A stretch of DNA of 64,000 nt from positions 12,985,383-13,049,382 of the forward strand of contig OX030955.1 of assembly GCA_943735955.1 (NCBI GenBank), given 5' to 3'. Of this stretch, positions 1 to 64,000 are shown piece after piece (the first letter of the stretch is position 1; each line of letters begins with the position of its first letter). Source of the DNA: Piscicola geometra (lineage: Eukaryota > Annelida > Clitellata > Hirudinida > Piscicolidae). The notes beneath the pieces were generated by a model that worked only from the letters and a program-made list of their open reading frames with translations, did not search any database and was not told the DNA's origin. The position numbers were made by a program, and so were the translations under genes.

Positions 1-3000
1 AAGTGTGTCTACCGCTGCATCGACAACAGTGCTGATTACTGCATCGACAACAGTGCCTACTACTGCATCGACAACAGTGCCGACTACTGCATCGAAACGT
101 GTGTCTAGTGCTGCATCGACAACAGTGCCGACTACTGCCTCAACAACAGAGCCGACTACTGCATCGACAACAGTGCCGACTACTGCATCGACAACAGTGC
201 CGACTACTGCATCGACAACAGTGCCGACTACTGCATCAAAAACAGTGCCGACTACTGCATCGACAACAGTGCCGACTACTGCATCGACAACAGTGCCGAC
301 TACTGCATCAAAAAGTGTGTCTAGTGCTGCATCGACAACAGTGCCGACAACTGCCTCAACAACAGTGCCGACTACTGCTTCGACAACAGTGCCGACAACT
401 GCATCGACAACTGTGCCGACTACTGCATCGACAACAGTGCCGACAACTGCATCGACAACAGTGCCGACTACTGCATCGACAACAGTGCCGACTACTGCAT
501 CGACAACAATGATTTCTACAGCATCAACAAGTGTGTCTACCGCTGCATCGACAACAGTGCTGATTACTGCATCAACAACAGTGCCGACTACTGCATCAAC
601 AACAGTGCCGACTACTGCATCGACAACAGTGCCGACTACTGCATCGACAACAGTGCCGACTACTGCATCAACAAGTGTGTCTAGTGCTGCATCGACAACA
701 GTGCCGACTACTGTCTCAACAACAGTGCCGACTACTGCTTTGACAACAGTGCCAACTACTGCATCGACAACAGTGCCGACTACTGCATCGACAACAGTGC
801 CGACTACTGCATCGACAACAATGATTTCTACAGCATCAACAAGTGTGTCTACCGCTGCATCGACAACAGTGCTGATTACTGCATCGACAACAGTGCCTAC
901 TACTGCATCGACAACAGTGCCGACTACTGCATCGAAAAGTGTGTCTAGTGCTGCTTCGACAACAGTGCCGACTACTGCCTCAACAACAGAGCCGACTACT
1001 GCATCGACAACAGTGCCGACTACTGCATCGACAACAGTGCCGACTACTGCATCGACAACAGTGCCGACTACTGCATCAAAAACAGTGCCGACTACTGCAT
1101 CGACAACAGTGCCGACTACTGCATCGACAACAGTGCCGACTACTGCATCAAAAAGTGTGTCTAGTGCTGCATCGACAACAGTGCCGACAACTGCCTCAAC
1201 AACAGTGCCGACTACTGCATCGACAACAGTGCCGACTACTGCATCGACAACAGTGCTGACTATTGCATCAACAACAGTGCCGACTACTGCCTCAACAACA
1301 GTGCCGACTACTGCATCGACAACAGTGCCGACTACTGCATCGACAACAGTGCTGACTATTGCATCAACAACAGTGCCGACTACTGCATCGACAACAGTGC
1401 CGACAACTGCATCGACAACAGTGCCGACTACTGCATCGACAACAGTGCCGACTACTGCATCGACAACAATGATTTCTACAGCATCAACAAGTGTGTCTAC
1501 CGCTGCATCGACAACAGTGCCGACTACTGCATCGACAACAGTGCCGACTACTGCATCGACAACAATGATTTCTACTGCATCGACAACAATGATTTCTACA
1601 GCATCAACAAGTGTGTCTACCGCTGCATCGACAACAGTGCTGATTACTGCATCGACAACAGTGCCGACTACTGCATCGACAACAGTGCCGACTACTGCAT
1701 CAACAAGTGTGTCTAGTGCTGCATCGACAACAGTGCCGACTACTGTCTCAACAACAGTGCCGACTACTGCTTTGACAACAGTGCCGACTACTGCATCGAC
1801 AACAGTGCCGACTACTGCATCGACAACAGTGCCGACTACTGCATCGACAACAATGATTTCTACAGCATCAACAAGTGTGTCTACCGCTGCATCGACAACA
1901 GTGCTGATTACTGCATCGACAACAGTGCCTACTACTGCATCGACAACAGTGCCGACTACTGCATCGAAACGTGTGTCTAGTGCTGCATCGACAACAGTGC
2001 CGACTACTGCCTCAACAACAGAGCCGACTACTGCATCGACAACAGTGCCGACTACTGCATCGACAACAGTGCCGACTACTGCATCGACAACAGTGCCGAC
2101 TACTGCATCAAAAACAGTGCCGACTACTGCATCGACAACAGTGCCGACTACTGCATCGACAACAGTGCCGACTACTGCATCAAAAAGTGTGTCTAGTGCT
2201 GCATCGACAACAGTGCCGACAACTGCCTCAACAACAGTGCCGACTACTGCTTCGACAACAGTGCCGACAACTGCATCGACAACTGTGCCGACTACTGCAT
2301 CGACAACAGTGCCGACAACTGCATCGACAACAGTGCCGACTACTGCATCGACAACAGTGCCGACTACTGCATCGACAACAATGATTTCTACAGCATCAAC
2401 AAGTGTGTCTACCGCTGCATCGACAACAGTGCTGATTACTGCATCAACAACAGTGCCGACTACTGCATCAACAACAGTGCCGACTACTGCATCGACAACA
2501 GTGCCGACTACTGCATCGACAACAGTGCCGACTACTGCATCAACAAGTGTGTCTAGTGCTGCATCGACAACAGTGCCGACTACTGTCTCAACAACAGTGC
2601 CGACTACTGCTTTGACAACAGTGCCGACTACTGCATCGACAACAGTGCCGACTACTGCATCGACAACAGTGCCGACTACTGCATCGACAACAATGATTTC
2701 TACAGCATCAACAAGTGTGTCTACCGCTGCATCGACAACAGTGCTGATTACTGCATCGACAACAGTGCCTACTACTGCATCGACAACAGTGCCGACTACT
2801 GCATCGAAAAGTGTGTCTAGTGCTGCTTCGACAACAGTGCCGACTACTGCCTCAACAACAGAGCCGACTACTGCATCGACAACAGTGCCGACTACTGCAT
2901 CGACAACAGTGCCGACTACTGCATCGACAACAGTGCCGACTACTGCATCAAAAACAGTGCCGACTACTGCATCGACAACAGTGCCGACTACTGCATCGAC

Positions 3001-3456
3001 AACAGTGCCGACTACTGCATCAAAAAGTGTGTCTAGTGCTGCATCGACAACAGTGCCGACAACTGCCTCAACAACAGTGCCGACTACTGCATCGACAACA
3101 GTGCCGACTACTGCATCGACAACAGTGCTGACTATTGCATCAACAACAGTGCCGACTACTGCCTCAACAACAGTGCCGACTACTGCATCGACAACAGTGC
3201 CGACTACTGCATCGACAACAGTGCTGACTATTGCATCAACAACAGTGCCGACTACTGCATCGACAACAGTGCCGACAACTGCATCGACAACAGTGCCGAC
3301 TACTGCATCGACAACAGTGCCGACTACTGCATCGACAACAATGATTTCTACAGCATCAACAAGTGTGTCTACCGCTGCATCGACAACAGTGCCGACTACT
3401 GCATCGACAACAGTGCCGACTACTGCATCGACAACAATGATTTCTACTGCATCGAC
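1..3456 (+). repeat. Direct duplication with 1,872-bp spacing (78 units)
   Basis: Positions 1-1584 correspond to 1873-3456. The only difference I saw is CCA versus CCG (position 754 versus 2626), which is silent in the mucin frame. Even the rare Lys-Arg codon pair is shared. The two diverge just after 1584/3456. The first copy probably starts upstream of the window, so the duplication junction would lie near 1584/1585. Confidence 0.85.
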
Positions 3457-6400
3457 AAAAGTGCCGACTACTGCATCAACAACAGTGCCAACTACTGCAT
3501 CGACAACAGTGCCGACTACTGCATCGACAACAGTGCCGACTACTGCATCAAAAAGTGTGTCTAGTGCTGCATCGACAACAGTGCCGACTACTGCATCGAC
3601 AACAGTGCCGACTACTGCATCGACAACAGTGCCGACTACTGCATCAACAACAGTGCCGACTACTGCTTCGACAACAGTGCCGACAACTGCATCGACAACT
3701 GTGCCGACTACTGCATCGACAACAGTGCCGACAACTGCATCGACAACAGTGCCGACTACTGCATCGACAACAGTGCCGACTACTGCATCGACAACAATGA
3801 TTTCTACAGCATCAACAAGTGTGTCTACCGCTGCATCGACAACAGTGCTGATTACTGCATCAACAACAGTGCCGACTACTGCATCAACAACAGTGCCGAC
3901 TACTGCATCGACAACAGTGCCGACTACTGCATCGACAACAGTGCCGACTACTGCATCAACAAGTGTGTCTAGTGCTGCATCGACAACAGTGCCGACTACT
4001 GTCTCAACAACAGTGCCGACTACTGCTTTGACAACAGTGCCGACTACTGCATCGACAACAGTGCCGACTACTGCATCGACAACAGTGCCGACTACTGCAT
4101 CGACAACAATGATTTCTACAGCATCAACAAGTGTGTCTACCGCTGCATCGACAACAGTGCTGATTACTGCATCGACAACAGTGCCTACTACTGCATCGAC
4201 AACAGTGCCGACTACTGCATCGAAAAGTGTGTCTAGTGCTGCATCGACAACAGTGCCGACTACTGCCTCAACAACAGAGCCGACTACTGCATCGACAACA
4301 GTGCCGACTACTGCATCGACAACAGTGCCGACTACTGCATCGACAACAGTGCCGACTACTGCATCAAAAACAGTGCCGACTACTGCATCGACAACAGTGC
4401 CGACTACTGCATCGACAACAGTGCCGACTACTGCATCAAAAAGTGTGTCTAGTGCTGCATCGACAACAGTGCCGACAACTGCCTCAACAACAGTGCCGAC
4501 TACTGCATCGACAACAGTGCCGACTACTGCATCGACAACAGTGCTGACTATTGCATCAACAACAGTGCCGACTACTGCCTCAACAACAGTGCCGACTACT
4601 GCATCGACAACAGTGCCGACTACTGCATCGACAACAGTGCCGACAACTGCATCGACAACAGTGCCGACTACTGCATCGACAACAGTGCCGACTACTGCAT
4701 CGACAACAATGATTTCTACAGCATCAACAAGTGTGTCTACCGCTGCATCGACAACAGTGCCGACTACTGCATCGACAACAGTGCCGACTACTGCATCGAC
4801 AACAATGATTTCTACTGCATCGACAAAAGTGCCGACTACTGCATCAACAACAGTGCCAACTACTGCATCGACAACAGTGCCGACTACTGCATCGACAACA
4901 GTGCCGACTACTGCATCAAAAAGTGTGTCTAGTGCTGCATCGACAACAGTGCCGACTACTGCATCGACAACAGTGCCGACTACTGCATCGACAACAGTGC
5001 CGACTACTGCATCAACAACAGTGCCGACTACTGCATCGACAACAGTGCCCACAACTGCATCGACAACTGTGCCGACTACTGCATCGACAACAGTGCCGAT
5101 TACTGCATCGACAAAAGTGCCGACTACTGCATCAACACCAATGATTTCTACAGCATCAACAAGTGTGTCTACCGCTGCATCGACAACAGTGCCGACTACT
5201 GCATCGACAACAGTGCCGACTACTGCATCGACAACAATGATTTCTACTGCATCGACAACAGTGCCGACTACTGGATTAACAACAGTGCCGACTACTGCAT
5301 CAACAACAGTGCCGACTACTGCATCGACAACAGTGCCGACTACTGCATCGACAACAGTGCCGACTACTGCATCGAAAACAGTGCCGACTACTGCATCGAC
5401 AACAGTGCCGACTACTTCATCAACAACAGTGCCGACTACTGCATCGACAACAGTGCCGACTACTGCATCGACAACAGTGCCGACTACTGCATCAACAAGT
5501 GTGTCTAGTGCTGCATCGACAACAGTGCCGACTACTGCCTCAACAACAGTGCCGACTACTGCATCGACAACAGTGCCGACTACTGCATCGACAACAGTGC
5601 TGACTATTGCATCAACAACAGTGCCGACTACTGCCTCAACAACAGTGCCGACTACTGCATCGACTACAGTGCCGACTACTGCATCGACAACAGTGCTGAC
5701 TATTGCATCAACAACAGTGCCGACTACTGCATCGACAACAGTGCCGACAACTGCATCGACAACAGTGCCGACTACTGCATCGACAACAGTGCCGACTACT
5801 GCATCGACAACAGTGCTGACTATTGCATCAACAACAGTGCCGACTACTGCATCGACAACAGTGCCGACAACTGCATCGACAACAGTGCCGACTACTGCAT
5901 CGACAACAGTGCCGACTACTGCATCGACAACAATGATTTCTACAGCATCAACAAGTGTGTCTACCGCTGCATCGACAACAGTGCCGACTACTGCATCGAC
6001 AACAGTGCCGACTACTGCATCGACAACAATGATTTCTACTGCATCGACAAAAGTGCCGACTACTGCATCAACAACAGTGCCAACTACTGCATCGACAACA
6101 GTGCCGACTACTGCATCGACAACAGTGCCGACTACTGCATCAAAAAGTGTGTCTAGTGCTGCATCGACAACAGTGCCGACTACTGCATCGACAACAGTGC
6201 CGACTACTGCATCGACAACAGTGCCGACTACTGCATCAACAACAGTGCCGACTACTGCTTCGACAACAGTGCCGACAACTGCATCGACAACTGTGCCGAC
6301 TACTGCATCGACAACAGTGCCGACAACTGCATCGACAACAGTGCCGACTACTGCATCGACAACAGTGCCGACTACTGCATCGACAACAATGATTTCTACA

Positions 6401-9400
6401 GCATCAACAAGTGTGTCTACCGCTGCATCGACAACAGTGCTGATTACTGCATCAACAACAGTGCCGACTACTGCATCAACAACAGTGCCGACTACTGCAT
6501 CGACAACAGTGCCGACTACTGCATCGACAACAGTGCCGACTACTGCATCAACAAGTGTGTCTAGTGCTGCATCGACAACAGTGCCGACTACTGTCTCAAC
6601 AACAGTGCCGACTACTGCTTTGACAACAGTGCCGACTACTGCATCGACAACAGTGCCGACTACTGCATCGACAACAGTGCCGACTACTGCATCGAAAAGT
6701 GTGTCTAGTGCTGCATCGACAACAGTGCCGACTACTGCCTCAACAACAGAGCCGACTACTGCATCGACAACAGTGCCGACTACTGCATCGACAACAGTGC
6801 CGACTACTGCATCGACAACATTGCCGACTACTGCATCAAAAACAGTGCCGACTACTGCATCGACAACAGTGCCGACTACTGCATCGACAACAGTGCCGAC
6901 TACTGCATCAAAAAGTGTGTCTAGTGCTGCATCGACAACAGTGCCGACAACTGCCTCAACAACAGTGCCGACTACTGCATCGACAACAGTGCCGACTACT
7001 GCATCGACAACAGTGCTGACTATTGCATCAACAACAGTGCCGACTACTGCCTCAACAACAGTGCCGACTATTGCATCGACAACAGTGCCGACTACTGCAT
7101 CGACAACAGTGCCGACAACTGCATCGACAACAGTGCCGACTACTGCATCGACAACAGTGCCGACTACTGCATCGACAACAATGATTTCTACAGCATCAAC
7201 AAGTGTGTCTACCGCTGCATCGACAACAGTGCCGACTACTGCATCGACAACAGTGCCGACTACTGCATCGACAACAATGATTTCTACTGCATCGACAAAA
7301 GTGCCGACTACTGCATCAACAACAGTGCCAACTACTGCATCGACAACAGTGCCGACTACTGCATCGACAACAGTGCCGACTACTGCATCAAAAAGTGTGT
7401 CTAGTGCTGCATCGACAACAGTGCCGACTACTGCATCGACAACAGTGCCGACTACTGCATCGACAACAGTGCCGACTACTGCATCAACAACAGTGCCGAC
7501 TACTGCATCGACAACAGTGCCGACTACTGCATCGACAACAGTGCTGACTATTGCATCAACAACAGTGCCGACTACTGCATCGACAACAGTGCCCACAACT
7601 GCATCGACAACTGTGCCGACTACTGCATCGACAACAGTGCCGATTACTGCATCGACAAAAGTGCCGACTACTGCATCAACACCAATGATTTCTACAGCAT
7701 CAACAAGTGTGTCTACCGCTGCATCGACAACAGTGCCGACTACTGGATTAACAACAGTGCCGACTACTGCATCAACAACAGTGCCGACTACTGCATCGAC
7801 AACAGTGCCGACTACTGCATCGAAAACAGTGCCGACTACTGCATCGACAACAGTGCCGACTACTTCATCAACAACAGTGCCGACTACTGCATCGACAACA
7901 GTGACGACTACTGCATCGACAACAGTGCCGACTACTGCATCAACAAGTGTGTCTAGTGCTGCATCGACAACAGTGCCGACTACTGCCTCAACAACAGTGC
8001 CGACTACTGCATCGACAACAGTGCCGACTACTGCATCGACAACAGTGCTGACTATTGCATCAACAACAGTGCCGACTACTGCCTCAACAACAGTGCCGAC
8101 TACTGCATCGACAACAGTGCCGACTACTGCATCGACAACAGTGCTGACTATTGCATCAACAACAGTGCCGACTACTGCATCGACAACAGTGCCGACAACT
8201 GCATCGACAACAGTGCCGACTACTGCATCGACAACAGTGCCGACTACTGCATCGACAACAATGATTTCTACAGCATCAACAAGTGTGTCTACCGCTGCAT
8301 CGACAACAGTGCCGACTACTGCATCGACAACAGTGCCGACTACTGCATCGACAACAATGATTTCTACTGCATCGACAAAAGTGCCGACTACTGCATCAAC
8401 AACAGTGCCAACTACTGCATCGACAACAGTGCCGACTACTGCATCGACAACAGTGCCGACTACTGCATCAAAAAGTGTGTCTAGTGCTGCATCGACAACA
8501 GTGCCGACTACTGCATCGACAACAGTGCCGACTACTGCATCGACAACAGTGCCGACTACTGCATCAACAACAGTGCCGACTACTGCATCGACAACAGTGC
8601 CGACTACTGCATCGACAACAGTGCTGACTATTGCATCAACAACAGTGCCGACTACTGCATCGACAACAGTGCCCACAACTGCATCGACAACTGTGCCGAC
8701 TACTGCATCGACAACAGTGCCGATTACTGCATCGACAAAAGTGCCGACTACTGCATCAACACCAATGATTTCTACAGCATCAACAAGTGTGTCTACCGCT
8801 GCATCGACAACAGTGCCGACTACTGGATTAACAACAGTGCCGACTACTGCATCAACAACAGTGCCGACTACTGCATCGACAACAGTGCCGACTACTGCAT
8901 CGAAAACAGTGCCGACTACTGCATCGACAACAGTGCCGACTACTTCATCAACAACAGTGCCGACTACTGCATCGACAACAGTGCCGACTACTGCATCGAC
9001 AACAGTGCCGACTACTGCATCAACAAGTGTGTCTAGTGCTGCATCGACAACAGTGCCGACTACTGCCTCAACAACAGTGCCGACTACTGCATCGACAACA
9101 GTGCCGACTACTGCATCGACAACAGTGCTGACTATTGCATCAACAACAGTGCCGACTACTGCATCGACAACAGTGCCGACAACTGCATCGACAACTGTGC
9201 CGACTACTGCATCGACAACAGTGCCGATTACTGCATCGACAAAAGTGCCGACTACTGCATCAACACCAATGATTTCTACAGCATCAACAAGTGTGTCTAC
9301 CGCTGCATCGACAACAGTGCCGACTACTGGATTAACAACAGTGCCGACTACTGCATCAACAACAGTGCCGACTACTGCATCGACAACAGTGCCGACTACT

Positions 9401-24400: not shown

Positions 24401-27400
24401 GCATTAACAACTGTGCCGACTACTGCATCAACAACAGTGCCGACTACTGCATCGACAACAGTGCCGACTACTGCATCAACAACAGTGCCGACTACTGCAT
24501 CGACAACAGTGCCGACTACTGCATCGATAACAGTGCCGACTACTGCATCGACAACAGTGCCGACTACTGCATCGACAACAGTGCCGACTACTGCATCGAC
24601 AACAATGATTTCTACAGCATCAACAAGTGTGTCTAGTGCTGCATCGACAACAGTGCCGACTACTGCCTCAACAACAGTGCCGACTACTGCATCGACAACA
24701 GTGCCGACTACTGCATCGAAAACAGTGCTGACTATTGCATCAACAACAGTTCCGACTACTGCATCGACAACAGTGCCTACAACTGCATCGACAACTGTGC
24801 CGACTACTGCATCAACAACAGTGCCGACTACTGCATCAACAACAGTGCCGACTACTGCATCAACAACAGTGCCGACTACTGCATCAACAACAGTGCCGAC
24901 TACTGCATCGACAACAGTGCCGACTACTGCATCAACAACAGTGCCGACTACTGCATCGACAACAGTGCCGACTACTGCATCGATAACAGTGCCGACTACT
25001 GCATCGACAACAGTGCCGACTACTGCATCGACAACAGTGCCGACTACTGCATCGACAACAATGATTTCTACAGCATCAACAAGTGTGTCTAGTGCTGCAT
25101 CGACAACAGTGCCGACTACTGCCTCAACAACAGTGCCGACTACTGCATCAACAACAATGATTTCTACAGCATCAACAAGTGTGTCTACCGCTGCATCGAC
25201 AACAGTGCTGATTACTGCATCAACAACTGTGCCGACTACTGCTTCAACAACAGTGCCGACTACTGCATCAACAACAGAGCCGACTACTGCATCGACAACA
25301 GTGCCGACTACTGCATCAACAACAGAGCCGACTACTGCATCGACAACAGTGCCAATTACTGCATCGACAACAATGATTTCTACAGCATCAACAAGTGTGT
25401 CTACCGCTGCATCGACAACAGTGCCGACTACTGCATCAACAACAGTGCCGACTACCGCATCAACAACAGTGCCGACTACTGCATCGACAACAGTGCCGAC
25501 TACTGCATCAACAACAGTGCCGACTACTGCATCGACAACAGTGCCGACTACTGCATCGACAACAATGATTTCTACAGCATCAACAAGTGTGTCTAGTGCT
25601 GCATCGACAACAGTGCCGACTACTGCCTCAACAACAGTGCCGACTACTGCATCGACAACAGTGCCGACTACTGCATCGAAAACAGTGCTGACTATTGCAT
25701 CAACAACAGTTCCGACTACTGCATCGACAACAGTGCCTACAACTGCATCGACAACTGTGCCGACTACTGCATCAACAACAGTGCCGACTACTGCATCAAC
25801 AACAGTGCCGACTACTGCATCGACAACAGTGCCGACTACTGCATCAACAACAGTGCCGACTACTGCATCGACAACAGTGCCGACTACTGCATCGACAACA
25901 GTGCCGACTACTGCATCGACAACAATGATTTCTACAGCATCAACAAGTGTGTCTAGTGCTGCATCGACAACAGTGCCGACTACTGCCTCAACAACAGTGC
26001 CGACTACTGCATCAACAACAATGATTTCTACAGCATCAACAAGTGTGTCTACCGCTGCATCGACAACAGTGCTGATTACTGCATCAACAACTGTGCCGAC
26101 TACTGCTTCAACAACAGTGCCGACTACTGCATCAACAACAGAGCCGACTACTGCATCGACAACAGTGCCGACTACTGCATCAACAACAGAGCCGACTACT
26201 GCATCGACAACAGTGCCAATTACTGCATCGACAACAATGATTTCTACAGCATCAACAAGTGTGTCTACCGCTGCATCGACAACAGTGCCGACTACTGCAT
26301 CAACAACAGTGCCGACTACCGCATCAACAACAGTGCCGACTACTGCATCGACAACAGTGCCGACTACTGCATCAACAACAGTGCCGACTACTGCATCGAC
26401 AACAGTGCCGACTACTGCATCGACAACAATGATTTCTACAGCATCAACAAGTGTGTCTAGTGCTGCATCGACAACAGTGCCGACTACTGCCTCAACAACA
26501 GTGCCGACTACTGCATCGACAACAGTGCCGACTACTGCATCGAAAACAGTGCTGACTATTGCATCAACAACAGTTCCGACTACTGCATCGACAACAGTGC
26601 CTACAACTGCATCGACAACTGTGCCGACTACTGCATCAACAACAGTGCCGACTACTGCATCAACAACAGTGCCGACTACTGCATCGACAACAGTGCCGAC
26701 TACTGCATCAACAACAGTGCCGACTACTGCATCGACAACAGTGCCGACTACTGCATCGATAACAGTGCCGACTACTGCATCGACAACAGTGCCGACTACT
26801 GCATCGACAACAGTGCCGACTACTGCATCGACAACAATGATTTCTACAGCATCAACAAGTGTGTCTAGTGCTGCATCGACAACAGTGCCGACTACTGCCT
26901 CAACAACAGTGCCGACTACTGCATCGACAACAGTGCCGACTACTGCATCGAAAACAGTGCTGACTATTGCATCAACAACAGTGCCGACTACTGCATCGAC
27001 AACAGTGCCGACAACTGCATCGACAACTGTGCCGACTACTGCATCAACAACAGTGCCGACTACTGCATCAACAACAGTGCCGACTACTGCATCGACAACA
27101 GTGCCGACAACTGCATCAACAACAGTGCCGACTACGGCATCGACAACAGTGCCGACTACTGCATCGACAACACTGCCGTCTACTGCATCAACAAGTGTGT
27201 CTAGTGCTGCATCGACAACAGTGCCGACTACTGTCTCAACAACAGTGCCGACTAAAGCATCGACAACAGTGCCGACTACTGCATCAACAACAATGATTTC
27301 TACAGCATCAACAAGTGTGTCTACCGCTGCAGCGACAACAGTGCTGATTACTGCATCGACAACTGTGCCGACTACTGCATCGACAACAGTGCCGACTACT

Positions 27401-54400: not shown

Positions 54401-57400
54401 GCATCAACAACAGTGCCGACTACTGCATCGACAACAGTGCCGACTACTGCATCAACAACAGTGCCGACTACTGCATCGACAACAGTGCCGACTACTGCAT
54501 CGATAACAGTGCCGACTACTGCATCGACAAAAGTGCCGACTACTGCATCAACAACAGTGCCGACTACTGCATCGACAATAATGATTTCTACAGCATCAAC
54601 AAGTGTGTTTAGTGCTGCATCGACAACAGTGCCGACTACTGCCTCAACAACAGTGCCGACTACTGCATCGACAACAGTGCCGACTACTGCATCGAAAACA
54701 GTGCTGACTATTGCATCAACAACAGTGCCGACTACTGCATCGACAACAGTGCCGACAACTGCATCGACAACTGTGCCGACTACTGCATCAACAACAGTGC
54801 CGACTACTGCATCAACAACAGTGCCGACTACTGCATCGACAACAGTGCCGACAACTGCATCAACAACAAGGCCGACTACTGCATCGACAACAGTGCCGAC
54901 TACTGCATCGACAACAGTGCCGTCTACTGCATCAACAAGTGTGTCTAGTGCTGCATCGACAACAGTGCCGACTACTGTCTCAACAACAGTGCCGACTACT
55001 GCATCGACAACAGTGCCGACTACTGCATCAACAACAATGATTTCTACAGCATCAACAAGTGTGTCTACCGCTGCAGCGACAACAGTGCTGATTACTGCAT
55101 CGACAACAGTGCCGACTACTGCATCGACAACAGTGCCGACTACTGCATCGACAACAGTGCCGACTACTGCATCGACAACAGTGCCGACTACTGCATCGAC
55201 AACAATGATTTCTACAGCATCAACAAGTGTGTCTACCGCTGCATCGACAACAGTGCTGATTACTGCATTAACAACTGTGCCGACTACTGCATCAACAACA
55301 GTGCCGACTACTGCATCGACATCAGTGCCGACTACTGCATCAACAACAGTGCCGACTACTGCATCGACAACAGTGCCGACTACTGCATCAACAACAGTGC
55401 CGACTACTGCATCGACAACAGTGCCGACTACTGCATCGATAACAGTGCCGACTACTGCATCGACAAAAGTGCCGACTACTGCATCAACAACAGTGCCGAC
55501 TACTGCATCGACAATAATGATTTCTACAGCATCAACAAGTGTGTTTAGTGCTGCATCGACAACAGTGCCGACTACTGCCTCAACAACAGTGCCGACTACT
55601 GCATCGACAACAGTGCCGACTACTGCATCGAAAACAGTGCTGACTATTGCATCAACAACAGTGCCGACTACTGCATCGACAACAGTGCCGACAACTGCAT
55701 CGACAACTGTGCCGACTACTGCATCAACAACAGTGCCGACTACTGCATCAACAACAGTGCCGACTACTGCATCGACAACAGTGCCGACAACTGTATCAAC
55801 AACAATGCCGACTACTGCATCGACAACAGTGCCGACTACTGCATCGACAACAGTGCCGTCTACTGCATCAACAAGTGTGTCTAGTGCTGCATCGACAACA
55901 GTGCCGACTACTGTCTCAACAACAGTGCCGACTACTGCATCGACAACAGTGCCGACTACTGCATCAACAACAATGATTTCTACAGCATCAACAAGTGTGT
56001 CTACCGCTGCAGCGACAAATGTGCTGATTACTGCATCGACAACAGTGCCGACTACTGCATCGACAACAGTGCCGACTACTGCATCGACAACAGTGCCGAC
56101 TACTGCATCGACAACAATGATTTCTACAGCATCAACAAGTGTGTCTACCGCTGCATCGACAACAGTGCTGATTACTGCATTAACAACTGTGCCGACTACT
56201 GCATCAACAACAGTGCCGACTACTGCATCAACAACAGTGCCGACTACTGCATCAACAACAGTGCCGACTACTGCATCGACAACAGTGCCGACTACTGCAT
56301 CGATAACAGTGCCGACTACTGCATCGACAACAGTGCCGACTACTGCATCGACAACAGTGCCGACTACTGCATCGACAACAATGATTTCTACAGCATCAAC
56401 AAGTGTGTCTAGTGCTGCATCGACAACAGTGCCGACTACTGCCTCAACAACAGTGCCGACTACTGCATCGACAACAGTGCCGACTACTGCATCGAAAACA
56501 GTGCTGACTATTGCATCAACAACAGTTCCGACTACTGCATCGACAACAGTGCCTACAACTGCATCGACAACTGTGCCGACTAATGCATCAACAACAGTGC
56601 CGACTACTGCATCAACAACAGTGCCGACTACTGCATCGACAACAGTGCCGACTACTGCATCAACAACAGTGCCGACTACTGCATCGACAACAGTGCCGAC
56701 TACTGCATCGATAACAGTGCCGACTACTGCATCGACAACAGTGCCGACTACTGCATCGACAACAGTGCCGACTACTGCATCGACAACAATGATTTCTACA
56801 GCATCAACAAGTGTGTCTAGTGCTGCATCGACAACAGTGCCGACTACTGCCTCAACAACAGTGCCGACTACTGCATCGACAACAGTGCCGACTACTGCAT
56901 CGAAAACAGTGCTGACTATTGCATCAACAACAGTGCCGACTACTGCATCGACAACAGTGCCGACAACTGCATCGACAACTGTGCCGACTACTGCATCAAC
57001 AACAGTGCCAACTACTGCATCAACAACAGTGCCGACTACTGCATCGACAACAGTGCCGACAACTGCATCAACAACAGTGCCGACTACTGCATCGACAACA
57101 GTGCCGACTACTGCATCGACAACAGTGCCGACAACTGCATCAACAACAGTGCCGACTACTGCATCGACAACAGTGCCGACTACTGCATTGACAACAGTGC
57201 CGTCTACTGCATCAACAAGTGTGTCTAGTGCTGCATCGACAACAGTGCCGACTACTGCCTCAACAACAGTGCCGACTACTGCATCGACAACAGTGCCGAC
57301 TACTGCATCAACAACAGTGCCGACTACTGCATCAACAACAGTGCCGACTACTGCATCGACAACAGTGCCGACAACTGCATCAACAACAATGCCGACTACT

Positions 57401-60400
57401 GCATCGACAACAGTGCCGACTACTGCATCGACAACAGTGCCGTCTACTGCATCAACAAGTGTGTCTAGTTCTGCATCGACAACAGTGCCGACTACTGTCT
57501 CAACAACAGTGCCGACTACTGCATCGACAACAGTGCCGACTACTGCATCAACAACAATGATTTCTACAGCATCAACAAGTGTGTCTACCGCTGCAGCGAC
57601 AACAGTGCTGATTACTGCATCGACAACAGTGCCGACTACTGCATCGACAACAGTGCCGACTACTGCATCGACAACAGTGCCGACTACTGCATCAACAACA
57701 GTGCCGACTACTGCATCGACAACAATGATTTCTAAAGCATCAACAAGTGTGTCTACCGCTGCATCGACAACAGTGCTGATTACTGCATTAACAACTGTGC
57801 CGACTACTGCATCAACAACAGTGCCGACTACTGCATCAACAACAGTGCCGACTACTGCATCAACAACAGTGCCGACTACTGCATCGACAACAGTGCCGAC
57901 TACTGCATCAACAACAGTGCCGACTACTGCATCGACAACAGTGCCGACTACTGCATCGATAACAGTGCCGACTACTGCATCGACAACAGTGCCGACTACT
58001 GCATCGACAACAGTGCCGACAACTGCATCGACAACTGTGCCGACTACTGCATCAACAACAGTGCCGACTACTGCATCAACAACAGTGCCGACTACTGCAT
58101 CGACAACAGTGCCGACAACTGCATCAACAACAATGCCGACTACTGCATCGACAACAGTGCCGACTACTGCCTCAACAACAGTGCCGACTACTGCATCAAC
58201 AACAGTGCCGACTACTGCATCGAAAACAGTGCCGACTACTGTCTCAACAACAGTGCCGACTACTGCATCGACAACAGTGCCGACTACTGCATCAACAACA
58301 ATGATTTCTACAGCATCAACAAGTGTGTCTACCGCTGCAGCGACAACAGTGCTGATTACTGCATCGACAACAGTGCCGACTACTGCATCGACAACAGTGC
58401 CGACTACTGCATCGACAACAGTGCCGACTACTGCATCGACAACAATGATTTCTACAGCATCAACAAGTGTGTCTACCGCTGCATCGACAACAGTGCTGAT
58501 TACTGCATTAACAACTGTGCCGACTACTGCATCAACAACAGTGCCGACTACTGCATCGACATCAGTGCCGACTACTGCATCAACAACAGTGCCGACTACT
58601 GCATCGACAACAGTGCCGACTACTGCATCGATAACAGTGCCGACTACTGCATCGACAACAGTGCCGACTACTGCATCGACAACAATGATTTCTACAGCAT
58701 CAACAAGTGTGTCTAGTGCTGCATCGACAACAGTGCCGACTACTGCCTCAACAACAGTGCCGACTACTGCATCGACAACAGTGCCGACTACTGCATCGAA
58801 AACAGTGCTGACTATTGCATCAACAACAGTGCCGACAACTGCATCGACAACTGTGCCGACTACTGCATCAACAACAGTGCCGACTACTGCATCAACAACA
58901 GTGCCGACTACTGCATCGACAACAGTGCCGACAACTGCATCAACAACAATGCCGACTACTGCATCGACAACAGTGCCGACTACTGCATCGACAACAGTGC
59001 CGTCTACTGCATCAACAAGTGTGTCTAGTGCTGCATCGACAACAGTGCCGACTACTGTCTCAACAACAGTGCCGACTACTGCATCGACAACAGTGCCGAC
59101 TACTGCATCAACAACAATGATTTCTACAGCATCAACAAGTGTGTCTACCGCTGCAGCGACAACAGTGCTGATTACTGCATCGACAACAGTGCCGACTACT
59201 GCATCGACAACAGTGCCGACTACTGCATCGACAACAGTGCCGACTACTGCATCGACAACAGTGCCGACTACTGCATCGACAACAATGATTTCTACAGCAT
59301 CAACAAGTGTGTCTACCGCTGCATCGACAACAGTGCTGATTACTGCATTAACAACTGTGCCGACTACTGCATCAACAACAGTGCCGACTACTGCATCGAC
59401 ATCAGTGCCGACTACTGCATCAACAACAGTGCCGACTACTGCATCGACAACAGTGCCGACTACTGCATCGATAACAGTGCCGACTACTGCATCGACAACA
59501 GTGCCGACTACTGCATCGACAACAGTGCCGACTACTGCATCGACAACAATGATTTCTACAGCATCAACAAGTGTGTCTAGTGCTGCATCGACAACAGTGT
59601 CGACTACTGCATCGACAACAGTGCCGACTACTGCATCGAAAACAGTGCTGACTATTGCATCAACAACAGTTCCGACTACTGCATCGACAACAGTGCCTAC
59701 AACTGCATCGACAACTGTGCCGACTACTGCATCAACAACAGTGCCGACTACTGCATCAACAACAGTGCCGACTACTGCATCGACAACAGTGCCGACTACT
59801 GCATCAACAACAGTGCCGACTACTGCATCGACAACAGTGCCGACTACTGCATCGATAACAGTGCCGACTACTGCATCGACAACAGTGCCGACTACTGCAT
59901 CGACAACAGTGCCGACTATTGCATCGACAACAATGATTTCTACAGCATCAACAAGTGTGTCTAGTGCTGCATCGACAACAGTGCCGACTACTGCCTCAAC
60001 AACAGTGCCGACTACTGCATCGACAACATTGCCGACTACTGCATCGAAAACAGTGCTGACTATTGCATCAACAACAGTGCCGACTACTGCATCGACAACA
60101 GTGCCGACAACTGCATCAACAACAGTGCCGACTACTGCATCGACAACAGTGCCGACAACTGCATCAACAACAGTGCCGACTACTGCATTGACAACAGTGC
60201 CGACTACTGCATCGACAACAGTGCCGACAACTGCATCAACAACAGTGCCGACTACTGCATCGACAACAGTGCCGACTACTGCATCGACAACAGTGCCGTC
60301 TACTGCATCAACAAGTGTGTCTAGTGCTGCATCGACAACAGTGCCGACTACTGCCTCAACAACAGTGCCGACTACTGCATCGAAAAAAGTGCCGACTACT

Positions 60401-63400
60401 GCATCAACAACAGTGCCGACTACTGCATCAACAACAGTGCCGACTACTGCATCGACAACAGTGCCGACAACTGCATCAACAACAATGCCGACTACTGCAT
60501 CGACAACAGTGCCGACTACTGCATCGACAACAGTGCCGTCTACTGCATCAACAAGTGTGTCTAGTGCTGCATCGACAACAGTGCCGACTACTGTCTCAAC
60601 AACAGTGCCGACTACTGCATCAACAACAATGATTTCTACAGCATCAACAAGTGTGTCTACCGCTGCAGCGACAACAGTGCTGATTACTGCATCGACAACA
60701 GTGCCGACTACTGCATCGACAACAGTGCCGACTACTGCATCGACAACAGTGCCGACTACTGCATCAACAACAGTGCCGACTACTGCATCGACAACAATGA
60801 TTTCTACAGCATCAACAAGTGTGTCTACCGCTGCATCGACAACAGTGCTGATTACTGCATTAACAACTGTGCCGACTACTGCATCAACAACAGTGCCGAC
60901 TACTGCATCAACAACAGTGCCGACTACTGCATCAACAACAGTGCCGACTACTGTATCGACAACAGTGCCGACTTATGCATCAACAACAGTGCCGACTACT
61001 GCATCGACAACAGTGCCGACTACTGCATCGATAACAGTGCCGACTACTGCATCGACAACAGTGCCGACTACTGCATCGACAACAGTGCCGACTACTGCAT
61101 CGACAACAATGATTTCTACAGCATCAACAAGTGTGTCTAGTGCTGCATCGACAACAGTGCCGACTACTGCCTCAACAACAGTGCCGACTACTGCATCGAC
61201 AACAGTGCCGACTACTGCATCGAAAACAGTGCTGACGATTGCATCAACAACAGTGCCGACTACTGCATCGACAACAGTGCCGACAACTGCATCGACAACT
61301 GTGCCGACTACTGCATCAACAACAGTGCCGACTACTGCATCAACAACAGTGCCGACTACTGCATCGACAACAGTGCCGACAACTGCATCAACAACAATGC
61401 CGACTACTGCATCGACAACAGTGCCGACTACTGCATCGACAACAGTGCCGTCTACTGCATCAACAAGTGTGTCTAGTGCTGCATCGACAACAGTGCCGAC
61501 TACTGTCTCAACAACAGTGCCGACTACTGCATCGACAACAGTGCCGACTACTGCATCAACAACAATGATTTCTACAGCATCAACAAGTGTGTCTACCGCT
61601 GCAGCGACAACAGTGCTGATTACTGCATCGACAACAGTGCCGACTACTGCATCAACAACAGTGCTGACTACTGCATCGACAACAGTGCCGACTACTGCAT
61701 CGATAACAGTGCCGACTACTGCATCGACAACAGTGCCGACTACTGCATCGACAACAGTGCCGACTACTGCATCGACAACAATGATTTCTACAGCATCAAC
61801 AAGTGTGTCTAGTGCTGCATCGACAACAGTGCCGACTACTGCCTCAACAACAGTGCCGACTACTGCATCGACAACAGTGCCGACTACTGCATCGAAAACA
61901 GTGCTGACTATTGCATCAACAACAGTTCCGACTACTGCATCGACAACAGTGCCTACAACTGCATCGACAACTGTGCCGACTACTGCATCAACAACAGTGC
62001 CGACTACTGCATCAACAACAGTGCCGACTACTGCATCGACAACAGTGCCGACTACTGCATCAACAACAGTGCCGACTACTGCATCGACAACAGTGCCGAC
62101 TACTGCATCGATAACAGTGCCGACTACTGCATCGACAACAGTGCCGACTACTGCATCGACAACAGTGCCGACTACTGCATCGACAACAATGATTTCTACA
62201 GCATCAACAAGTGTGTCTAGTGCTGCATCGACAACAGTGCCGACTACTGCCTCAACAACAGTGCCGTCTACTGCATCGACAACAGTGCCGACTACTGCAT
62301 CGAAAACAGTGCTGACTATTGCATCAACAACAGTGCCGACTACTGCATCGACAACAGTGCCGACAACTGCATCGACAAATGTGCCGACTACTGCATCAAC
62401 AACAGTGCCGACTACTGCATCAACAACAGTGCCGACTACTGCATCGACAACAGTGCCGACAACTGCATCAACAACAGTGCCGACTACTGCATCGACAACA
62501 GTGCCGTCTACTGCATCAACAAGTGTGTCTAGTGCTGCATCGACAACAGTGCCGACTACTGTCTCAACAACAGTGCCGACTACTGCATCAACAACAATGA
62601 TTTCTACAGCATCAACAAGTGTGTCTACCGCTGCAGCGACAACAGTGCTGATTACTGCATCGACAACAGTGCCGACTACTGCATCGACAACAGTGCCGAC
62701 TACTGCATCGACAACAGTGCCGACTACTGCATCGACAACAGTGCCGACTACTGCATCGACAACAATGATTTCTACAGCATCAACAAGTGTGGCTACCGCT
62801 GCATCGACAACAGTGCTGATTACTGCATCAACAACTGTGCCGACTACTGCATCAACAACAGTGCCGACTACTGCATCAACAACAGAGCCGACTACTGCAT
62901 CGACAACAGTGCCGACTACTGCATCAACAACAGAGCCGACTACTGCATCAACAACAGTGCCGACTACTGCATCAACAACAGTGCCGACTACTGCATCGAA
63001 AACAGTGCCGACAACTGCATCAACAACAGTGACGACTACTGCATCGACAACAGTGCCGACTACTGCATCGACAACAGTGCCGTCTACTGCATCAACAAGT
63101 GTGTCTAGTGCTGCATCGACAACAGTGCCGACTACTGTCTCAACAACAGTGCCGACTACTGCATCAACAACAATGATTTCTACAGCATCAACAAGTGTGT
63201 CTACCGCTGCAGCGACAACAGTGCTGATTACTGCATCGACAACAGTGCCGACTACTGCATCAACAACAGTGCCGACTACTGCATCAACAACAGAGCCGAC
63301 TACTGCATCGACAACAGTGCCGACTACTGCATCAACAACAGAGCCGACTACTGCATCGACAACAGTGCCGACTACTGCATCGACAACAATGATTTCTACA

Positions 63401-64000
63401 GCATCAACAAGTGTGTCTACCGCTACATCGACAACAGTGCCGACTACTGCATCAACAACAGTGCCGACTACTGCATCAACAACAGTGCCGACTACTGCAT
63501 CGACAACAGTGCCGACTACTGCATCAACAACAGTGCCGACTACTGCATCGACAACAGTGCCGACTACTGCATCGATAACAGTGCCGACTACTGCATCGAG
63601 AACAGTGCCGACTACTGCATCCACAACAGTGCCGACTACTGCATCGACAACAATGATTTTTACAGCATCAACAAGTGTGTCTAGTGCTACATCGACAACA
63701 GTGCCGACTACTGCCTCAACAACAGTGCCGACTACTGCATCGACAACAGTGCCGACTACTGCATCGAAATCAGTGCTGACTATTGCATCAACAACAGTGC
63801 CGACTACTGCATCGACAACAGTGCCGACAACTGCATCGACAACTGTGCCGACTACCGCATCAACAACAGTGCCGACTACTGCATCAACAACAGTGCCGAC
63901 TACTGCATCAACAACAGTGCCGACTACTGCATCAACAACAGAGCCGACTACTGCATCGACAACAGTGCCGACTACTGCATCAACAACAGAGCCGACTACT
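2..64000 (+). CDS. Interior of a giant mucin-like Thr/Ser/Pro-rich tandem-repeat protein (partial, open at both ends)
   Basis: Codons begin at positions equal to 2 modulo 3. The frame reads Thr-Thr-Val-Pro-Thr-Thr-Ala-Ser over and over, and I found no TAA, TAG or TGA in it anywhere, giving 21,333 codons without start or end. The composition is about 50% Thr with the rest mostly Ser, Pro, Ala and Val. I saw no Cys and no N-X-S/T sequon; Lys, Arg and Glu occur only in scattered variant units. This is the signature of a mucin PTS domain, a scaffold for dense O-glycosylation in the Golgi, so a secreted or surface mucus, glue or slime protein is inferred. Human MUC5AC also has an 8-residue PTS repeat (TTSTTSAP), but there cysteine-rich CysD modules interrupt it; none occur here. 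In-frame Met codons (for example 509 and 821) belong to a variant repeat and are not start sites. No intron, signal peptide or terminal domain is visible. A non-coding satellite or the antisense frame are the alternatives; both are less likely. Confidence 0.8.
503..550 (+). repeat. Composite 48-bp marker unit TTMISTAS-TSVSTAAS (example copy)
   Basis: This is one instance of a two-unit marker that recurs throughout the window, usually every few hundred bases. The first 24 bp encode Thr-Thr-Met-Ile-Ser-Thr-Ala-Ser. The second encode Thr-Ser-Val-Ser-Thr-Ala-Ala-Ser or, in alternating copies, Thr-Ser-Val-Ser-Ser-Ala-Ala-Ser. The Met-Ile unit is almost always followed directly by the Ser-Val unit, although the Ser-Val unit can occur alone. 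The pair supplies nearly all Met residues of the protein and punctuates the canonical TTVPTTAS runs. It also explains the shadow frames: it puts a TGA in one other plus frame, and the TSVSSAAS version puts a TAG in the remaining one. Confidence 0.95.
7081..9161 (+). repeat. Direct tandem duplication with 1,080-bp spacing (45 units)
   Basis: Positions 7081-8081 match 8161-9161. One substitution was seen: GTG ACG at about 7904 against GTG CCG in the second copy, a Pro to Thr change. Both copies include the TTVPTGLT unit and the CCC-ACA variant. The match fails beyond 9161, where a GCC-bearing unit in the first copy is replaced by a GCA unit. Confidence 0.85.
13681..18440 (+). repeat. Array zone B: transitional zone mixing variants of zones A and C
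   Basis: The zone carries zone-A features: Lys-marked TSVSSAAS at about 16105, 16320, 18050 and 18265, and TTVPTGST-type units at about 15134 and 17078. It also carries the first zone-C features: gataac Ile units from about 13775 and TSVSTAAA (gcagcgac) at about 14345. Much of it is a 1.8-kb segment present twice. The mixture looks like a boundary where two array families have been brought together. Both edges are approximate. Confidence 0.7.
14726..18496 (+). repeat. Direct duplication with 1,944-bp spacing (81 units)
   Basis: Positions 14726-16552 match 16670-18496. Shared rare variants include an ACA GGA GTG codon string (about 14831 and 16775) and the GTA variant at about 15199 and 17143. 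At least three substitutions separate the copies: about 15774 versus 17718, 15351 versus 17295, and 16467 versus 18411. The copies are therefore somewhat older than the near-identical duplications further right. Confidence 0.8.
20329..22872 (+). repeat. Abutting tandem duplication of a 1,272-bp block (53 units)
   Basis: The first copy is 20329-21600 and the second 21601-22872, joined without any intervening base. I saw no difference between them when comparing line by line. The junction places two TSVSSAAS units 48 bp apart (21553 and 21601), an arrangement found only here. Both copies carry the unusual ACT GCT form of the TSVSTAAS unit, at 20929 and 22201. Confidence 0.85.
25005..26759 (+). 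repeat. Tandem duplication with 864-bp spacing (36 units)
   Basis: Positions 25005-25895 match 25869-26759. Each copy carries one CCA ATT unit (about 25351 and 26215), two TTEPTTAS units and one ACC unit. The same CCA ATT unit also occurs near 23269, 31737 and 44311, so this block belongs to a wider family. Confidence 0.75.
26641..30165 (+). repeat. Direct duplication with 1,944-bp spacing
   Basis: Positions 26641-28221 match 28585-30165. The shared rare codon is ACT AAA GCA (taaagc at 27253 and 29197), a Thr to Lys change. A GTG to TTG change near 29957 distinguishes the second copy. The right part of the second copy was then duplicated again with a 1,104-bp spacing. Confidence 0.8.
29053..31260 (+). 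repeat. Abutting tandem duplication of a 1,104-bp block (46 units)
   Basis: The first copy is 29053-30156 and the second 30157-31260. No difference was seen. The Lys codon AAA at 29197 reappears at 30301, and the TTG variant at about 29957 reappears at about 31061. Because TTG is absent from the older copy near 28013, this event is later than the overlapping 1,944-bp one. Confidence 0.85.
31600..32778 (+). repeat. Long-range duplicated segment, copy 1
   Basis: The segment matches 44176-45354, 12,576 bp away (524 units). Shared rare features are an ACA ATG CCG unit (about 31948 and 44524) and an ATG CTT unit (32381 and 44957). Differences include GTG TCG at about 32265 against GTG CCG, and AGT GTG against AGT TTG at about 32403 and 44980. 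Confidence 0.8.
40274..41783 (+). repeat. Abutting tandem duplication with 744-bp spacing (31 units)
   Basis: Positions 40274-41039 match 41018-41783. Each copy has a Thr to Ile unit (gactattgc, about 40405 and 41149). Each also has a compact arrangement in which two TSVSSAAS units flank a single TTMISTAS unit (about 40897-40960 and 41641-41704). Confidence 0.8.
44176..45354 (+). repeat. Long-range duplicated segment, copy 2
   Basis: This is the partner of 31600-32778. Its AGT TTG variant near 44980 is also found at about 37444, in another ATG CTT-associated block, so the segment is a mosaic of at least two sources. The left neighbour carries a GTT CTG unit at about 44140 that was not seen elsewhere. 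Confidence 0.8.
45901..48576 (+). repeat. Abutting tandem duplication of a 1,320-bp block (55 units)
   Basis: The first copy is 45901-47220 and the second 47221-48540, with the match continuing to 48576. Comparing all lines I saw one difference: GTT at about 46519 against GTG at about 47839, silent for Val. Both copies share rare codons: ACG ACT (about 46488 and 47808), CCG AAT (about 47073 and 48393), and TCA AAA near 46437 and 47757. Confidence 0.9.
50535..52860 (+). repeat. Direct duplication with 1,440-bp spacing (60 units)
   Basis: Positions 50535-51420 match 51975-52860, with one substitution seen (GTG versus GTA at about 51414 and 52854, silent). Both share the rare CTG AAT ATT unit (about 50961 and 52401). 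The left junction near 51972 joins a canonical unit directly onto the second half of a TTMISTAS unit, so a unit hybrid marks the recombination point. Confidence 0.85.
53206..55556 (+). repeat. Block family with 936-bp spacing marked by TSVFSAAS
   Basis: A TCT to TTT change (Ser to Phe) next to an ATA ATG unit occurs four times, with TTT at 53240, 53672, 54608 and 55544. The spacings are 432, 936 and 936 bp. I saw this Phe unit nowhere else, so it arose once and was copied. The copies differ by scattered substitutions, such as AAT to AAG near 54869 and TCA to TTA near 53781. Confidence 0.85.
58381..59520 (+). repeat. Duplicated segment with 840-bp spacing
   Basis: Positions 58381-58680 match 59221-59520. 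Both contain an ACA TCA GTG variant (about 58560 and 59400), which also occurs near 55320. The right edges differ by one extra canonical unit in the second copy. Confidence 0.7.

Follow-up and report, generated by a model that had tools for sequence, protein, structure and literature searches.

The open frame and its extent

The DNA analysed in this study (hereafter the window) is a stretch of 64,000 bases from the fish leech Piscicola geometra, C1:12985383-13049382 (C1 denotes contig OX030955.1), inside a genome of 171,024,195 bases in 66 contigs. A tandem array occupies the window from base 15 on, according to the rows of the repeat finder, and the GC content is 49-51% throughout. The repeated unit of 24 bp, ACT ACT GCA TCG/A ACA ACA GTG CCG, encodes the 8 residues TTASTTVP, and 1,369 perfect copies of this peptide lie in the plus-strand frame that begins at base 2. 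A re-scan confirmed the claim of the sequence-only reading that this single frame is open across the whole window (0 stops in 21,333 codons). Stops number 159 and 495 in the two remaining plus frames, and a single one occurs in one of the minus frames. Thr and Ser together were counted 12,829 times in the window frame, in agreement with the ~13,000 claimed earlier. When 100 kb on each side were included (264,000 bases, no N), the same frame showed 0 stops in 87,999 codons, against ~3,895 expected from an order-1 Markov model of this neighbourhood.

The window covers only a part of the feature: the open frame starts 472 kb upstream of it, and the end of the ORF lies 640 kb downstream. It is continuous from a unique N-terminal ORF (C1:12513253) through the repeats, a stalk and a transmembrane helix to the stop at 13689488, and each of the two ends has one match in the genome. 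The sole interruption seen is an assembly gap of 200 N. In the genome search, the open frame reported by the tool with the N-terminal ORF was 223,780 aa long, and that with the C-terminal end was 173,346 aa long. By arithmetic, the former ends just past the gap, and the latter reaches back past the gap in a shifted frame. The sum of the codons up to the gap (223,710) and from the gap (168,301) is 392,011. The sequence-only reading was therefore right about a giant frame, but its figure of at least 21,333 codons fell far short of ~392,000. Since the array contains a gap, the true length may well exceed even the assembled one.

About 890 kb of the array was covered by the tool-reported frames together with samples, not letter by letter; such frames would read Ns as open, and no second gap was seen in the sequence that was read. 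Forty samples of 300 bases across the chromosome were used to trace the array. The repeat was absent from the 4 samples at 12285001-12505001 and from the samples at 13709001 and 13749001. All 18 samples at 12515001-13180001 were open in the window frame. The 15 samples at 13189001-13689001 had stops in the window frame; the shifted frame was open in the last seven of them, and in the other eight it is covered by the 173,346-aa open frame. The change of frame after 13.18 Mb was rejected as a true end of the ORF, for it coincides with the 200-N gap and the 66-bp unit described below lies on both sides. According to the published report on the assembly (wrPisGeom1.1), it was built from HiFi reads at 76-fold coverage, has a QV of 51.3 and was scaffolded with Hi-C (PMC11134150); the present analysis covered one haplotype. 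A giant gene of a prokaryote was rejected as an explanation because the genome is of 171 Mb and has a mitochondrion that uses the invertebrate code, by which COX1 on the mitochondrial contig (C66) reads. Among the best 120 of 7,999 matches, this COX1 has 97% identity to Codonobdella, 89% to Notostomum and 86% to Pterobdella, and glossiphoniid leeches stand at 81-84%; the assignment to the fish leeches (Piscicolidae) is firm.

The array consists of two zones ( Table 1 ). The earlier statement that the frame is built from one 8-residue unit holds for the first part, the 24-bp zone (~640 kb), but the remainder, 531 kb, is made of ~8,000 copies of a 22-residue unit of 66 bp. The identity at a lag of one unit is 83-89% in the 24-bp zone (20-kb blocks), and the unit-to-unit identity in the 66-bp zone is 97.7% (in the part read after the gap). 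This much higher homogeneity suggests that the 66-bp zone probably expanded more recently. Ser and Thr make up 59.7% of the residues in the 24-bp zone, and Ser, Thr and Pro 69.8% (87,999 codons); Ser and Thr make up 53.6% in the 66-bp zone (4 kb counted). Extrapolated to the whole ORF, these values give a polypeptide of 38 MDa before sugars with ~224,000 Ser/Thr residues.

Table 1. Parts of the predicted gene, with positions on C1 (a slash marks a predicted splice junction)
Feature	Position	Strand	Remarks
Candidate first coding exon, MTLTRGILLLAGLLSLLSA, signal-peptide-like	12512291-12512348	+	Predicted; donor GCAT/GTATGT
Unique N-terminal part of the long exon	12513253 to ~12514620	+	Lys/Glu-rich; runs in frame into the repeats
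24-bp (8-residue) zone	~12514621 to a border between 13149383 and 13158445	+	~26,500-26,800 units
Part of the ORF in the window	window 2..64000	+	21,333 codons; TTASTTVP; inside the 24-bp zone
66-bp (22-residue) zone, unit TTVSMMTTESTSVPTAVSTTVP	~13158445 to ~13689180	+	
Assembly gap, 200 N	13184383-13184582		66-bp unit on both sides
Transmembrane helix LLLWYVGFVFCLLLLLLLL	13689363-13689419	+	By hydropathy only; after the unique Ser/Thr stalk
Predicted last intron, 127 bp	13689439-13689565	+	TATG/GTGAGT...CTCTAG/CTCGAG
Predicted last coding exon, tail RQYARETLEAEE and stop	13689566-13689594	+	AATAAA at 13689590
Unspliced alternative tail	end at 13689488	+	

The unique ends of the frame

At the N-terminal end, a stop at 12513250 precedes the frame and is followed by a Lys/Glu-rich ORF of 446 codons. 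It contains 0 stops, while the two alternative frames have 39 and 48 and shuffled sequences 39.5 on average. Six Cys residues are found among the first 93 residues of this part. The ATG of MTLTRGILLLAGLLSLLSA is located ~0.9 kb upstream, and the donor after it would join AAAAG/GC at 12513257 in frame. The acceptor at this position has no pyrimidine tract and is below the score cut-off; the sole acceptor above the cut-off is at 12512441, not at the proposed 12513257. In addition, the 15 kb scanned contain 12 ATGs followed by a hydrophobic stretch, of which this is one. The signal peptide encoded by the MTLTRGILLLAGLLSLLSA exon is regarded as a candidate only. Other signal-peptide-like starts were rejected: the ATGs at 12504277-12504289 have no donor above the cut-off, and the only donor above the cut-off for the ATG at 12506268 lies beyond the stop of its reading frame.

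At the C-terminal end, the repeats run into a Ser/Thr stalk and then into the helix LLLWYVGFVFCLLLLLLLL, all in one frame. The predicted donor follows the helix, and the predicted 127-bp intron, the tail RQYARETLEAEE and AATAAA come after it. Extension of the contig in both directions, which had been proposed as a check, thus reached a unique 446-codon ORF upstream and a stalk, a transmembrane helix, a predicted donor and a poly(A) signal downstream. The flanks are not those of a plain heterochromatic satellite without exons, the finding that was to have spoken against the gene. Since the array joins unique ends in frame on both sides, the view of the window as the interior of a giant mucin-like gene is supported.

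Among the domains for which a search of the ends had been suggested, the transmembrane domain was found at the C-terminal end by hydropathy; no VWD or CysD domain appeared. A Pfam search of the 446-aa N-terminal and the 161-aa C-terminal parts gave 0 families at E 1 or below, and accordingly neither the SEA or EGF domain nor the VWD, CysD and cystine-knot domains of gel-forming mucins were found in these two unique parts. A search of the protein collection with the C-terminal part yielded 2,182 candidates, none of them with an E value of 10 or less. For the N-terminal part plus repeats, 7,992 candidates were scored and 4 matched, over 13% of the query at most; they comprise one fungal protein, one metagenome protein and two mammalian Fc-epsilon receptors, and one of the four lacks an alignment. 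These matches were judged to be low-complexity and were rejected as homologues.

Several other features were observed around the two ends. The predicted first intron contains a purine-rich, irregular GGTGGTTGATTGG-like repeat (C1:~12512580-12513100). A part of a rhodopsin-family GPCR (Pfam 7tm_1, E 1.6e-7, 31.5 bits, cut-off 30.5) lies at C1:12500029-12500628 on the minus strand, ~12 kb upstream of the first exon of the mucin candidate and on the opposite strand. A short ORF at C1:12506923-12507147 showed a weak match to RVT_1 (E 0.00095, 19.4 bits, below the cut-off of 29.6). The fragment '..SLTDA.HVTMV..TMVLMR.GATPHDVHI.QCIRRKHRI.YTRY' is found at C1:13690085-13690435 on the plus strand, 0.5-0.9 kb downstream of the gene, and a related copy at C1:~12502974-12503300 on the minus strand, ~9 kb upstream. 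The downstream ORF at C1:13690778-13691080, with 0 Pfam families, resembles a hAT-type transposase. The sample C1:13729001-13729300 reads N; it lies ~40 kb beyond the 3' end of the gene and 20 kb after the polypyrimidine repeat found at 13709001.

Sequence changes within the array

Selection on the frame was analysed through rare 24-bp variants that lie one step from a parent at least ten times commoner, each treated as an independent event. The 374 events counted come from 539 distinct 24-mers; the 165 without a tenfold commoner parent were left out, and the mutation spectrum used for the expectations was drawn from the same 374 events. In the 264 kb, 0 events created a new stop in the mucin frame, whereas 7.7 were expected from the observed spectrum. 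This expectation, which takes the repeats into account, is much lower than the ~3,895 stops of the Markov model. The shifted plus frames gained 40 (42.0 expected) and 20 (16.2 expected), and the minus frames 0 (0.5 expected), 25 (29.6 expected) and 17 (26.0 expected). The calibration of the test is fair but imperfect, as the last of these control frames runs low. For the 205 rarest events, the mucin frame had 0 new stops vs 4.4 expected. Under a flat transition/transversion model, the expectation fell to 3.8 (2.1 for the rarest events), and 0 were seen. The Poisson probability is ~5 in 10,000 for 0 of 7.7 and ~1 in 45 for 0 of 3.8, both from 22% of the ORF; extended over the whole stop-free ORF, the nonsense deficit would be far stronger.

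Exact patterns were also counted genome-wide. In one exact context, the missense change TCR>TTR was found in 594 copies and TCR>TRR, which covers the three stops and TGG, in 0. In the 66-bp zone the analogous Ser>Leu change was present in 381 copies, and the tool-reported frame contains no stop there. Neighbouring repeat pairs numbered 9,156 at the normal spacing and 0 when shifted by one or two bases; the normal-spacing pattern also admits one base fewer, for which a separate pattern gave 0. Irregular steps occurred 12 times among 10,980 units, in two basic kinds, and all are multiples of 3. Indels and stops accumulating regardless of frame, as in a satellite, were not what we observed.

The residues themselves appear to be much less constrained. 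Missense events were not depleted in the 264 kb (256 seen vs 251.2 expected), and synonymous events numbered 118 vs 115.0 expected. Codon-level purifying selection was therefore rejected for missense changes, which stand with the synonymous ones at neutral proportions. The departure from the consensus was 0.116 at third positions vs 0.048 and 0.063 elsewhere. Most of this excess comes from one TCG/TCA site (0.421). The absence of new stops, together with undepleted missense changes, suggests that continuity is kept and not the exact residues. The continuity of the domain thus seems to matter and its exact residues hardly, as expected of a mucin-like ectodomain.

No GTRAGT donor and no ten-pyrimidine acceptor was found in 264 kb of the array, nor in the 8.5 kb of the 66-bp zone tested; these patterns represent strong sites only. 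From this lack of splice signals we infer that the array forms one exon. All copies counted by the three patterns (594, 9,156 and 381) were on the forward strand, with 0 on the reverse. The in-register minus frame was rejected as the true gene, since it has 9 stops in 264 kb. Its near-openness has no power as evidence, because just 0.5 new-stop events were expected there.

Predicted product, rival readings and scale

In our judgement, the locus is probably a protein-coding gene whose product is mucin-like and anchored in the membrane, with a Thr/Ser/Pro-rich ectodomain encoded by one exon of ~1.176 Mb. The composition and the open frame of this part agree with those of transmembrane mucins, in which a single large exon holds a long Thr/Ser/Pro domain of tandem repeats, and a single C-terminal transmembrane helix with a short tail, in frame with the repeats, is suggested by hydropathy. 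That the locus is a gene is concluded from the conservation of the frame and from its in-frame ends; synthesis of the full chain is a prediction. The further proposal that the fish leech makes a single chain of ~392,000 residues (~38 MDa before sugars) from one 1.18-Mb exon is put forward tentatively, as plausible and not yet as probable. Splicing at both ends, expression and glycosylation are likewise predicted from the DNA.

The putative signal peptide would route the chain into the secretory pathway, and the Lys/Glu-rich, Cys-bearing N-terminal part would form a distal head. The ~26,500-26,800 8-residue and ~8,000 22-residue units, judging from their composition, would be O-glycosylated to give a stiff, hydrated bottlebrush, which the C-terminal helix and the short cytosolic tail would anchor at the presumed cell surface. 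The array may have grown by the copying of whole in-frame units. Selection would purge truncations and frameshifts and tolerate residue changes as long as the Thr/Ser/Pro character stays. Such a tethered bottlebrush might serve in lubrication, adhesion or immune shielding on the epidermis, sucker, gland duct or gut, although these sites are guesses. A chain that terminates early would be shed as secreted mucin, and a single gene could in this way provide a tethered and a released form.

It is worth noting that the balance between these forms could be reversed. Ribosome drop-off on a real giant gene might give mainly a polydisperse secreted mucin without an anchor and only a minority of full-length tethered chains. 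An assumed drop-off of 1 in 100,000 codons over 392,000 codons would, by arithmetic, leave ~2% full-length product. On the other hand, the frame stays open through the far 3' half as far as the transmembrane end, suggesting that the full-length product matters. We regard this reading, a variant of the membrane-anchored mucin and compatible with it, as rather unlikely.

A non-coding satellite of 24-bp and 66-bp units, homogenised and stop-free by chance, would account for a very regular tandem array of megabase scale with neutral missense changes, and for the in-register minus frame being nearly open too, as composition alone predicts. The contrast between the mucin frame, which gains no stops, and the shifted plus frames, which gain them at about the neutral rate, is not explained in this way. 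Nor are the spacing of the pairs (9,156 normal and none off by one or two bases), the location of all counted copies on one strand, and the entry of both array ends into unique ORFs in frame, one of them with a transmembrane helix, a predicted donor and a poly(A) signal. A satellite is improbable on these grounds. It is highly improbable that the gene is real and the array is removed or skipped as an intron-like insertion, leaving a mature protein of N-terminus and transmembrane stalk with few repeats. This would spare the cell a 1.18-Mb mRNA, and each end does have its own unique sequence, but the strong splice sites looked for in the 264 kb are missing and a skipped array would freely gather stops and frameshifts, of which this one has none. 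A misjoin of two genes or contigs, each with its own array, at the 200-N scaffold gap (C1:13184383-13184582) of the Hi-C-scaffolded assembly is an equally slight prospect, since the 66-bp unit extends for ~26 kb ahead of the gap and for 505 kb beyond it, the N- and C-terminal ends are each a single match in the genome, and either half alone would still have 223,710 or 168,301 codons.

For the membrane-anchored mucin, we know of no protein near ~392,000 residues; the candidate, if made in full, would be several times larger than any known to us. The dystrophin gene is 2.2 Mb long, and transcription of 1.18 Mb is within known gene lengths; a mature message of 1.18 Mb is, to our knowledge, outside the known range. 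Translation proceeds at ~5 residues per second, at which rate the full chain would take ~22 hours. We know of no precedent for a 1.18-Mb mRNA or for a day-long translation. A glycosylated mucin has a length of ~0.25 nm per residue; if the proposal is true, the fully glycosylated chain could reach ~0.1 mm, longer than most cells, while tethered at one end. If the frame is fully translated, the known maximum length of an exon, an mRNA and a polypeptide rises several-fold, and the copying, export, translation and folding of a megabase message become testable. Even if it is only partly translated, an open frame has been kept over more than 1 Mb of tandem repeat of a kind usually dismissed as satellite. 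The gene would be a candidate surface or mucus molecule of a fish ectoparasite that grips slimy fish skin.

No account of such a gene came up in the full-text literature on megabase exons, giant proteins, leech mucins and Piscicolidae (including PMC11573180, PMC10066038, PMC12300183 and PMC12326168). Because few subscription papers or preprints were covered, this negative result carries little weight. The nearest known systems are compared here by architecture. The vertebrate transmembrane mucins (MUC16, MUC4 and MUC3/12/17) share with the candidate a huge Thr/Ser/Pro repeat exon, a single C-terminal transmembrane helix and a short cytosolic tail. The leech candidate differs in that no SEA or EGF domain was found at its ends, and in its far greater length, and no sequence homologue was found for it. 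The length of MUC16 is of the order of 14,000-22,000 aa. Proteins of the Cryptosporidium GP900 type are also described as mucin-like glycoproteins with a single transmembrane domain in a parasite; the organism is unrelated, and the likeness noted is one of description. They belong to an entirely different size class.

Among bacteria, the largest protein of Omnitrophota is said to have ~85,800 aa. The accessible text on this phylum describes giant single uninterrupted ORFs that are thought to be surface-associated and are poorly conserved, as is the case here, and gives 39,678 aa and 42 predicted transmembrane helices for an ORF of Velamenicoccus (PMC10066038). Unlike the leech candidate, these ORFs are bacterial and do not consist of one mucin-like repeat. 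The size benchmarks among eukaryotic proteins are titin (~35,000-38,000 aa) and PKZILLA-1 (~45,000 aa), which are multi-domain proteins, do not consist of one short repeat and are about ten times shorter than the chain predicted for the leech.
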